Assembly (NCBI GenBank): GCA_017428765.1
Contig: JAFRQF010000034.1
Coordinates: forward strand, 1 to 64,000
Direction: 5' to 3'
DNA from: Erysipelotrichaceae bacterium
Lineage (GTDB): Bacteria; Bacillota_I; Bacilli_A; Erysipelotrichales; Erysipelotrichaceae
DNA: 64,000 nucleotides
The notes under the pieces are model-generated. The model was not told the origin of the DNA. It saw nothing but the letters and a program-made list of their open reading frames with translations, and searched no databases. Position numbers and translations under genes: made by a program. Below, piece after piece: positions 13,363-16,353 of the stretch. Position 1 is the stretch's first letter; each line of letters starts with the position of its first letter.

Positions 13363-13386
13363 AAAGTTCAGGATGACCTGAACTTT
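13363..13386 (-). terminator. Intrinsic terminator of the sensory hydrogenase-phosphatase operon
   Basis: AAAGTTCAGG, loop TCAT, CCTGAACTTT on the minus strand follows the phosphatase stop by 4 nt. The facing tRNA-Thr terminator lies close by, so the two convergent units are separated. Confidence 0.8.
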
Positions 13387-13390
13387 CTTA

Positions 13391-14563
13391 TCAATAATAG
13401 GTGACCTTGACGGTCTTATTCAGCTTTTTGAGCACATCTATAAGCTCATCGACCAGTTTCATCTTCAAAGAGATGGAAAGCGATGAATTGTTCTGGTGGG
13501 CCGGATTGACGGCACAGCCGGAGAAGATGTTGACATCGGTCGCCTCTTCAAACAGGATCGAGGCAAGCCTGGATGCGCCATCCGTCTTGAAATACCAGTT
13601 GAAGTAATCATCGTTCTGACCGGCAAAGTTCTTTCCGTATTCCAGAACGCGGTTCATCGTGATCATGCCCTCCGTCACCAGATCCACTCCTTCGATCCTT
13701 GACATCGGCGGGATATCGGTGTCCATCTCGTTGTTTTCATTGATGATCTCTTTGCCCAGACATCTGGCAACGATCTTGGCGGTCGTGCCGCCGCAGACGA
13801 TGTGCTTGCCTTTTTTGGACATGAACAGAGACACCATCTTTTCATCATCTTCCGGTTTGGTGGAAGGTCCCATCATCAGATTGACCTGCTTCCTTTCTTT
13901 GATACGCACGCAGGCACAGGTCACATCATCTCCCGGCTTGGAGGCATACAAGGCATTGCAGCGATCGATCAGAGTGGTGGCCAGCACTTTTGCGCAGGAA
14001 TCATCCATCACTGTCTCTTCCATGAACTTCATGATCTCCGGAAGTTCCCAGCCGTAGTTCAGTATCTCTCCGGCACCGGCGTTCTTCACGCCGTCCGACA
14101 TCATGAAGATGCAATCCCCTTCCATTGCCGTAAAGTCATAGCGTTCGATCCTTTTGCCATGGATCTCATTTACGATATATTCCGGCAGGATCGCCTTGTG
14201 ATCTCTTACGATGAACGGGGACGGATTGTCGTAATTGTAGACCTTGATCTCTCTGTTGTTTTTTATCGAGATGACCGAAAACGTCGAATAGGCAACGCCC
14301 CTGTCCTTACATACGGGCAGAGTCGCGATGATCGTTTCCACGCACTGTTCGATACTGATGCCGTTTCCTACCATCTTCGACAGCATCGTGGAAGTCAGCG
14401 TCGAAAGGATGTTTGCCTTGACCCCGCTTCCCAATCCGTCGGCCAGGACGACGACATAGGAGCCTTCTCCCAAGTCGGTGACAGTCACATTGTCGCCGCA
14501 CAGCATCTCTCCGACGTGGTTGATCGAAACATAGCCGATATCGCTGTAAAGATTATTCACCAT
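13391..14563 (-). CDS. SpoIIE-type serine phosphatase paired with the sensory hydrogenase homologue
   Basis: The 390-residue protein has a PP2C/SpoIIE phosphatase domain in residues about 1-225. Metal-binding aspartates sit in LADGLGSG, MSDGVKNAG and GDDVTCACVRI. The C-terminal 160 residues form a second domain that I cannot assign. ATG at 14563 overlaps the hydrogenase homologue by 11 bp, so the two proteins should be made together. SpoIIE-type phosphatases usually dephosphorylate anti-sigma antagonists or other Ser/Thr phosphoproteins. Here the upstream iron-sulfur sensor probably controls the activity. The target is unknown, and no antagonist gene is adjacent. Confidence 0.82.
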   Translation of the reverse strand: MVNNLYSDIGYVSINHVGEMLCGDNVTVTDLGEGSYVVVLADGLGSGVKANILSTLTSTMLSKMVGNGISIEQCVETIIATLPVCKDRGVAYSTFSVISIKNNREIKVYNYDNPSPFIVRDHKAILPEYIVNEIHGKRIERYDFTAMEGDCIFMMSDGVKNAGAGEILNYGWELPEIMKFMEETVMDDSCAKVLATTLIDRCNALYASKPGDDVTCACVRIKERKQVNLMMGPSTKPEDDEKMVSLFMSKKGKHIVCGGTTAKIVARCLGKEIINENNEMDTDIPPMSRIEGVDLVTEGMITMNRVLEYGKNFAGQNDDYFNWYFKTDGASRLASILFEEATDVNIFSGCAVNPAHQNNSSLSISLKMKLVDELIDVLKKLNKTVKVTYY

Positions 14564-16232
14564 CTGATTTCACCAGCCCTTTGAGTTTCTCCAGAGCGAT
14601 CTTTGTCTCGGCTGCCGTTTCGCCTAACAGAGAAGCGATCTCGTGAACCGAGCGCATGTTCTGTTCAAGCAGCGAATCGGTGATCGAAACGGTATTGTTG
14701 ATGATCTTGAACTTCTCCTGCTTCTGTAATTCCTCTTCGGTGATGTCCCGGAAAACGGCGACCAGAACTTTGAACTTCTCATCATAGGAGATGGTCTTTT
14801 CGATGTATTTTTCATATTCGGAAAGATATTCATATTTGCCGGCGATCTTCTTACCTTCCAGAGCCTCAAAGAAATCGGAAGGATCCAGGATCATGGCGAT
14901 ATGCTGGCCTGTGACCGTATCCGGTGAATTCAAAGACAGGAGCTTGCACATGGTATTGTTGATCAGACCGATGTTGAGCTCTTCATCTAAGACCATCAGG
15001 CCGTTTGGCGTATTGTTGACGATGTTGTTTGCCAGAGACTGGGATTTCTCCATCAGCAGCGGCAGACACATGTCGATATTGGCATAGCCGCGGATGATCG
15101 CTCTGGCTTTGTCTTTGCAGGAATCATAGCCGCAGCAGCCGCAGTTGATCCTGTCTTTCGGATCTTTCTTGCCCATCTTTCCCAGCATCGCTTCGATCTC
15201 TTCCTCGCTTGGCTGGCGGTGCTGGATGGCGCTACGGTCATATGCGGTCCTGATATCATCCATGGTCGTCAGTTCGTAATCGAAATCTTGATTTCCGGCA
15301 TACTGATTGATCATGTGGGTGCTGGCTAAGATCGATCTTTTCTTGCGCTTGGCGATCGGACCGGCCACACAGCTGCCCTGGCAGGAAGACATCTCGATGA
15401 AACACTTGTGAAGCTTTCCTTCCCTGAGATCGTTCAAAGCGGAGATGCAGTTCTTCATCCCATCCACGACAAGGTAGTCATATTCCTTGTTTTCGCATTT
15501 CATGGTCTTTAAGATACCACCGGATTCCGGGAAGAGTCTGGCTTTCGAGCGTTCACGGACCTCTTTGTTTTCCGTTGTCATGACTTCGATGCCTTCTTTT
15601 TCCAGCCACTCATCGAGTTCTTCGAAAGTCAGCACGGCATCGATGTATTCGCTGTGATCGCCTTCGTCCTTCTTGGCGATGCAAGGCCCGATGAATACGA
15701 CGTTTGCGTTATCGAATCTCTGTTTCAGGTTGAGACCGTGTGCGCACATCGGCGATAAGACATCCGCGAGATACTTCCGGCATTCCGGATAGTGTTTCTG
15801 TATCAGGATGTTCACGGCATGGCAGCAGGAAGAGATGATCACATCGCGGTCCTTATCTTCCAGAAGCCTGTCATAGGCATTCTTGACGATCGTCGCACCG
15901 AGCGCCGTCTCTTCGACATCCGCAAAGCCGAGTTTCTTCAGCGTTTCCTTCATGCACAAGATATCACTTTCGGAATAATAGGAAACAAAGCTCGGTGCCA
16001 GTGAGACATACGTCTTTCCTTTTGCGATGAGAGCTTTGACTTTGTCCACGTCATTTCTGACGACTTTGAGTCTCTGCGGACAGATGTTGTAGCACGAACC
16101 GCAAAGGACGCAATCCTCATGGATGATCGAAGCGCGGTCGTTTTCAAAAGAGATCGCCTTGATACGGCAGCTCCTTATACACTTGTAGCAGTTCTTGCAA
16201 TTATCTGTCTTGCTTACCAGGCATCTTTCCAT
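14553..16232 (-). CDS. Sensory-type [FeFe]-hydrogenase homologue with PAS domain
   Basis: The 559-residue protein starts with two ferredoxin [4Fe-4S] motifs (CKNCYKCIRSC and CVLCGSCYNICP, residues about 12-53). An H-cluster domain follows, with cysteines in ISSCCHAV, IGPCIAKKDE and EMSSCQGSCVAG. These correspond to the L1, L2 and L3 motifs of hydrogenases, though with non-catalytic-type neighbours: His replaces Pro after CC. A further cysteine cluster CGCCGYDSC lies near residue 355, then a PAS domain near 390-490 and a helical tail. This order matches sensory HydS-like proteins, not energy-conserving hydrogenases. GGGAGGAATAG precedes ATG. Sensing of H2 or redox state is inferred. Confidence 0.82.
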   Translation of the reverse strand: MERCLVSKTDNCKNCYKCIRSCRIKAISFENDRASIIHEDCVLCGSCYNICPQRLKVVRNDVDKVKALIAKGKTYVSLAPSFVSYYSESDILCMKETLKKLGFADVEETALGATIVKNAYDRLLEDKDRDVIISSCCHAVNILIQKHYPECRKYLADVLSPMCAHGLNLKQRFDNANVVFIGPCIAKKDEGDHSEYIDAVLTFEELDEWLEKEGIEVMTTENKEVRERSKARLFPESGGILKTMKCENKEYDYLVVDGMKNCISALNDLREGKLHKCFIEMSSCQGSCVAGPIAKRKKRSILASTHMINQYAGNQDFDYELTTMDDIRTAYDRSAIQHRQPSEEEIEAMLGKMGKKDPKDRINCGCCGYDSCKDKARAIIRGYANIDMCLPLLMEKSQSLANNIVNNTPNGLMVLDEELNIGLINNTMCKLLSLNSPDTVTGQHIAMILDPSDFFEALEGKKIAGKYEYLSEYEKYIEKTISYDEKFKVLVAVFRDITEEELQKQEKFKIINNTVSITDSLLEQNMRSVHEIASLLGETAAETKIALEKLKGLVKSDGE

Positions 16233-16320
16233 ACTATTCCTCCCTGAAAATAAGTCTGTAAACCATCAGCTTTCGGCTGTCATCTTAAATGATACACCAG
16301 CGAAAGCCTTTTTCTTTTAT

Positions 16321-16353
16321 AAAAAAGAAAACGCCCTGTTTTTGCAGGACGTT
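16321..16353 (-). terminator. Intrinsic terminator of tex
   Basis: On the minus strand AACGTCCTG pairs with CAGGGCGTT and a long T tract follows, just after the tex stop. Confidence 0.8.

Follow-up and report, generated by a model that had tools for sequence, protein, structure and literature searches.

Group C3 of the [FeFe]-hydrogenases has been named 'Phosphatase-linked (putative)' in Table 1 of HydDB since 2016, where its role is listed as undetermined and the proposal made is a sensor that works by way of a Ser/Thr phosphatase (PMC5037454). Greening et al. propose the same mode of action for R. albus, in which the sensor, which contains a PAS domain and is accompanied by a phosphatase subunit, shares its gene cluster with a hydrogenase and an aldehyde/alcohol dehydrogenase, and is 111-fold lower in co-culture (PMC6776011). 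The HydS protein of T. maritima (group C, M2f) has a PAS domain, a C-terminal FeS cluster and changes at both methionine positions, with Ser at M497; at the CpI C299 position, where just 17% of the sensory sequences in HydDB have Cys, it carries Ala (PMC10055695). HydS of T. mathranii (group D, M2e; PMC8163306, PMC13104023) has a sensory-type H-domain followed by a C-terminal cluster. The Cx2Cx4Cx16C spacing of this cluster is reported for both proteins and for group C enzymes (PMC8163306). On the output side, a helical linker that joins a PAS-type sensor to the catalytic domain serves as the switch in related PPM phosphatases (PMC12143880).

We analyzed a gene pair of this kind in a 64,000-nucleotide stretch of an Erysipelotrichaceae genome (positions 1 to 64,000 of contig JAFRQF010000034.1, assembly GCA_017428765.1; hereafter the window). 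Judged by its phosphatase linkage rather than by the HydDB classifier, the pair fits group C3, so its kind is already known: it shares with that group an H-cluster sensor transcribed with a Ser/Thr phosphatase, and the same proposed role. The C3 table entry is, however, silent on the C-terminal domain of the phosphatase and on lineages without maturases. The R. albus system likewise has an H-domain, a PAS domain and a separate Ser/Thr phosphatase within an AdhE/hydrogenase cluster, but that cluster includes a group A1 hydrogenase; the pair described here is an orphan, and its genome lacks HydEFG. T. maritima HydS resembles the window protein in its PAS domain, C-terminal cluster and altered methionines, and differs at the C299 position, where window HydS has Cys. 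T. mathranii HydS shares the H-domain type and the C-terminal motif but, unlike window HydS, has no PAS domain. What is new here is the maturase-less setting of a C3 sensor, both in its own genome and in most relatives within the class. In our judgment, this setting and the C-terminal domain of the phosphatase are the parts worth following.

The gene pair and the placement of HydS

The features of the locus are as follows.

14553..16232, minus strand: hydS-like gene, 559 aa, with two [4Fe-4S] ferredoxin motifs, an H-cluster domain, a C-terminal [4Fe-4S] motif, a PAS domain and a long C-terminal helix
16071..16208, minus strand: two ferredoxin-type 4Fe-4S motifs, residues 9-54 (C12/15/18/22 and C41/44/47/51; Pfam Fer4 models)
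15357..16016, minus strand: Fe_hyd_lg_C (H-cluster) domain, residues 73-292 (PF02906, E 6.7e-49)
15819..15833, minus strand: L1 motif SSCCH, residues 134-138, with cubane ligand C137 and with C136 at the CpI C299 position (motif comparison)
15663..15689, minus strand: L2 motif GPCIAKKDE, residues 182-190, with ligand C184 and Gly at CpI M353 (motif comparison)
15357..15398, minus strand: L3 motif IEMSSCQGSCVAGP, residues 279-292, with ligands C284 and C288 and Ser at CpI M497 (motif comparison)
15060..15149, minus strand: C-terminal FeS motif Cx2Cx4Cx16C, residues 362-391 (PF04060, E 1.6e-8)
14736..15026, minus strand: PAS domain, residues 403-499 (Pfam match at 403-454)
14559..14741, minus strand: C-terminal signalling helices, residues 498-558, with the conserved stretch MRSVHEIASLLGET.AETK (AF2 secondary structure)
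14553..14563, minus strand: 11-nt overlap of the hydS stop and the phosphatase start (read from sequence)
13391..14563, minus strand: SpoIIE-type PP2C phosphatase gene, 390 aa
13901..14467, minus strand: PP2C/SpoIIE catalytic domain, residues 33-221 (Pfam match PF07228, E 1.8e-15)
13394..13900, minus strand: alpha/beta C-terminal domain without assigned family, residues 222-390 (conservation and structure model)
13363..13386, minus strand: perfect 10-bp hairpin AAAGTTCAGG-TCAT-CCTGAACTTT directly 3' of the phosphatase gene (read from sequence)
16239..16245, minus strand: AGGGAGG, resembling a ribosome-binding site, ahead of the hydS ATG (read from sequence)
16330..16353, minus strand: tex terminator-like hairpin in the tex/hydS gap, upstream of hydS (terminator scan)

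The overlap suggests that translation of the two genes is coupled. The hairpin beyond the phosphatase gene is a possible terminator with a weak T tail; the terminator scan, whose total number of sites was about that expected by chance, did not call it. The pair's neighbours in the window are tex, a tRNA-Thr gene (downstream of the phosphatase, on the opposite strand), maf and coaX, and none of the genes adjoining the pair encodes an anti-sigma factor or an antagonist.

The HydS fold matches solved [FeFe]-hydrogenases, with a best E of 3.1e-19. Ferredoxin, H-domain and FeS matches were found in 23/23 aligned relatives, and the ferredoxin-motif cysteines are invariant among them; the cubane cysteines C137, C184, C284 and C288 are invariant in all 72 HydS proteins compared. 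By CpI numbering, assigned by eye from the motifs, Gly182 occupies the M353 position and Ser282 the M497 position, both being substitutions of the sensory type, and the C299 position, Cys, Ser or Ala across the clade, is held in the window by C136, the proton-transfer cysteine. The extra cysteines C364, C367, C372 and C389 form an exact Cx2Cx4Cx16C motif. The PAS match at residues 403-454 (E 1.4e-4) falls slightly below the Pfam cut-off; for 17 of the 23 relatives a PAS match was obtained at E <= 0.001. An AF2 model, with a pLDDT of only about 50-73 over the last 50 residues, places helices at 498-536 and 540-558. The most conserved stretch of this end is MRSVHEIASLLGET.AETK; M526, E531, I532, A533, L536, G537, E538, A541 and K544 are invariant in the aligned relatives.

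In an IQ-TREE phylogeny of 52 proteins, HydS formed a single clade (100/99) separate from group B (96/97) and group A (100/100). A tree built on 262 H-domain columns alone gave the same split, with a support of 0.998 for HydS; both trees were made without the T. maritima and T. mathranii proteins. Window HydS groups with proteins from Erysipelotrichaceae MAGs; its identity with the HydS proteins of Ruminococcus bromii and Butyrivibrio is about 49%. This placement, together with the cubane cysteines, the replacement of M353 and M497, and the Cx2Cx4Cx16C motif followed by PAS, agrees with group C (M2f, sensory). Membership of the catalytic group A was rejected on the tree.

The catalytic domain of the phosphatase aligns with SpoIIE, and the metal-binding aspartates expected of a catalytic PP2C enzyme are kept (D24, D42, D157, D212 and D213, invariant in 29 relatives), which places it among the SpoIIE-type enzymes. 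Its model (pLDDT 88.4) matches SpoIIE 5mqh over the first part (E 1.2e-14). The SpoIIE equivalog TIGR02865 scored 61 bits against a cut-off of 490.8 and covered the phosphatase part only, so that the protein is no full-length SpoIIE. It shares the catalytic domain and its aspartates with SpoIIE/RsbU-type PPM phosphatases, but it differs from them in three respects: its sensor is a separate protein, it has an extra conserved C-terminal domain, and it lacks an N-terminal regulatory region. Indeed, the catalytic fold starts at about residue 5, and the structure model has neither the sensor nor the helical linker that RsbU-like proteins carry at their N-terminus. The C-terminal domain, modeled mostly at high confidence, has the invariants GP, GG, PP, D..TEG, GA and N..H, which suggest, as far as sequence can, a ligand pocket. 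It had no Pfam or NCBIfam match (29 members each) and no relative in a PDB sequence-profile search (best E 0.63), and among the matches listed by Foldseek for the whole model there were only PP2C-type phosphatases.

Most of this architecture had been anticipated in a preliminary description made from the sequence alone. The two overlapping genes, the ferredoxin motifs, the extra cysteine cluster, the PAS domain, the phosphatase with its additional C-terminal domain and the absence of an adjacent anti-sigma factor or antagonist were all recovered, and the hydrogenase tree that it proposed gave a sensory rather than a catalytic placement. Its claim of H-cluster cysteines in non-catalytic surroundings was right as to the four cysteines, Gly182 and Ser282; the proton-transfer cysteine, however, is retained as C136.

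Phosphatase linkage and operon context in relatives

A search of 395 genomes of the class was made with the phosphatase as the only query. In about 48 of them, matches scored well above other SpoIIE proteins, and nearly all of these strong matches were full length, including the C-terminal domain. A hydS gene was present at 49/49 phosphatase loci that could be inspected; at the 50th the contig stops at the phosphatase, and the 50 loci partly overlap, because some genomes contributed a wide as well as a narrow stretch. In named genomes we found at least 582 HydS relatives, of which 80 were kept. The phosphatase lies directly downstream of hydS in 73 of the 77 loci with room for it, and 55 of the 64 full-length pairs share an overlap of exactly 8 nt. 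The pair is not a chance arrangement; it recurs across hundreds of genomes.

Relatives often add further genes around the pair, in the conserved order rex, adhE, APH-like kinase, [2Fe-2S] ferredoxin, hydS, phosphatase, group B hydrogenase. The thioredoxin-like [2Fe-2S] ferredoxins, one or two in number and 80 aa long, precede the pair; a group B hydrogenase, or HydABC, follows it. A neighbourhood of the kind typical of Clostridia (hydS, rex and kinase) also occurs on a contig labelled Methanocorpusculum sp., which is probably misbinned. In two genomes of the class (G024 and G015) the pair is found in a third context, after a gene resembling NAD kinase. Tests of the role of group C3 can start from concrete parts: a strict pairing, a conserved operon and a phosphatase domain without known family.

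Hydrogenase maturases in hydS-bearing genomes

Profile searches of the window's own genome (93.8% complete) detected no HydF above cut-off, no HydG, no HydE and no HypD. Of 50 hydS-bearing genomes in the class, 47 lacked each of HydE, HydF and HydG, among them the single-contig genomes G289, G226, G174, G162, G105 and G082, and the other three (G072, G083 and G094, of one family) had all of them. HypD, the [NiFe] counterpart for Fe(CN)2CO, was missing in 49 of the 50. Where maturases do occur in these genomes, they were clearly detected. Among named hydS-bearing genomes, which are mostly Clostridia, HydG was found in 19 of 49, and the R. bromii and Butyrivibrio genomes carry it. In the literature, we found maturase-less hydrogenase lineages mentioned only in a passing remark (PMC3226654).

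With HydE/F/G absent and HypD nearly so, H2 sensing through a complete H-cluster is unsupported in these genomes. A C3 sensor that works without the [2Fe] subsite, in which the cubane and accessory clusters form an H2-blind redox receptor controlling the phosphatase, is what we tentatively propose for a large part of the class's anaerobes (Erysipelotrichaceae and relatives), at a little short of even odds. The opposite reading, a HydEFG-independent route of H-cluster assembly in these anaerobes, would be equally novel.

This second reading would make HydS a plain H2 sensor, its complete H-cluster assembled by a novel route or from scavenged precursors, with H2 driving the phosphatase as proposed for R. 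albus. The four cubane cysteines and Lys187 (CpI K358) are invariant in maturase-less members, homologues of about 49% identity come from the HydG-bearing genomes of R. bromii and Butyrivibrio, and hydrogenase activity without dedicated maturases is reported, at second hand, in references cited in PMC9161772. Loss of the maturases has not led to decay of the H-domain motifs, an idea that we rejected when the 72 HydS proteins proved equally strict with and without HydG in the genome; such strictness is expected if the full H-cluster is still made somehow. The conserved motifs and the maturase-free activity reported elsewhere therefore keep H2 sensing within reach. Against this stands the joint absence of HydE, HydF and HydG from the 47 genomes, single-contig ones included, and of HypD from nearly all, in a search that readily detects maturases. 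On balance, we consider a plain H2 sensor unlikely. Accordingly, where the preliminary description spoke of an H2- or redox-sensing protein that controls the phosphatase, the sensory placement and the phosphatase link stand and the H2 half is weakened. It had also named catalytic placement, a maturation set and a lacking phosphatase link as outcomes that would speak against it, and none of the three was found.

The absence of maturases from most hydS-bearing genomes of the class makes it possible to test whether the sensor needs the organometallic site or another assembly route is in use. It also means that H2 metabolism in maturase-less lineages may be overestimated when genes with an H-cluster domain are counted in metagenomes from gut and rumen.

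Several other hydrogenase loci were noted in these searches. The HydA of the window's own genome, part of a HydABC-like set (L055:7101-8879, G000:C5), reads TSCSPGW where HydA of T. maritima and T. kivui has TSCC; the CpI C300 ligand is replaced by Ser, and a Cys occurs in the following LSSCKSP. A unique loss of this ligand in maturase-less genomes was considered and rejected, as TSCSPGW was found in all sampled relatives of the HydABC type, 14 lacking and 5 bearing HydG. The motif therefore does not explain the absence of maturases, and the HydABC line may not be a hydrogenase. In G042 (L063:3549-19387) and G043 (L065:4981-19999), two genomes of the same taxonomic order without HydG, a single [FeFe]-hydrogenase cluster contains HydF, HydE, HypC/D/E/F-like and nitrogenase-like proteins, named from sequence except for HypD, which was identified by HMM; G048 is likely alike. 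Hyp proteins possibly supply CO/CN there in place of HydG. The one hydS-bearing genome with HypD, G111 (G111:C1:612385-613413, L219), has no HydE/F/G and may offer another case of maturation by a mixed or [NiFe]-type route.

Proposed route from the Fe-S clusters to the phosphatase

Taken as a whole, we read the pair as a group C3 Fe-S redox (possibly H2) sensor that acts through PAS and a helix on the phosphatase and thereby tunes fermentation, to which we assign a probability of roughly 0.65. The signal, direction of control, helix coupling and target in this model are our interpretation of the domains, clade, residues, pairing, operon context and maturase absence described above. The two N-terminal [4Fe-4S] clusters would bring electrons to HydS. 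The PAS domain would receive the redox or H2 signal from the C-terminal [4Fe-4S] cluster and from the H-domain, or at least from the [4Fe-4S] cubane of the latter. Since the unit stands alone in a genome with no known enzyme for an Fe-CO/CN site, the sensor is more likely to read the redox state of the ferredoxin pool than H2 bound at a complete H-cluster. In T. mathranii HydS, a group D protein without PAS, the C-terminal cluster stays unreduced under H2 (PMC13104023), which makes an Fe-S relay to PAS doubtful.

PAS and the conserved C-terminal helices may then act in trans on the co-translated phosphatase. Because the phosphatase begins directly with its catalytic fold, we propose that the linker helix found at the N-terminus of other PPM phosphatases is here provided by HydS. 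The enzyme would dephosphorylate Ser/Thr of a regulator, candidates being Rex, AdhE or a substrate of the neighbouring kinase. In relatives with the rex, adhE, kinase, ferredoxin and group B operon, the outcome might be the balance between H2-linked and ethanol-linked fermentation. In T. saccharolyticum, deletion of hfsA or hfsB raises ethanol yield and adhE expression (PMC5707799).

It could be argued instead that the pair, cut off in this genus from its operon and hydrogenase, is a decaying remnant with little function left. The window copy has no rex, adhE, kinase, ferredoxin or group B gene beside it, full-length hydS is confined to 4 of the 36 genomes from the genus, and in a sister species (G034, L062:7586-7909) hydS is reduced to a remnant of about 102 residues next to unrelated genes. 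Yet both window frames are intact with all catalytic and ligand residues kept, the overlap is retained, and the intact pair of another genome (G033) is 87-89% identical and, like the window pair, sits after tex; decay thus seems improbable to us. That HydS is an active, group B-like hydrogenase misread as a sensor is very improbable: C136 is retained and the group B1 model is its best NCBIfam match, but at 199 bits against a cut-off of 450, which together with a tree position outside group B rules out membership, and Gly and Ser at the two methionine positions, the PAS domain, the phosphatase linkage and the missing maturases all point to the sensor.

For the sensor-phosphatase route, other proteins of the same genome are of note. 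It encodes a 631-aa frame (G000:C28:71366-72352) that combines a SpoIIE phosphatase with a HATPase_c_2 (anti-sigma-type kinase) domain and, besides it, four other SpoIIE-domain proteins, the window one included. The 631-aa protein and the other SpoIIE-domain proteins are possible partners or targets of the pair.
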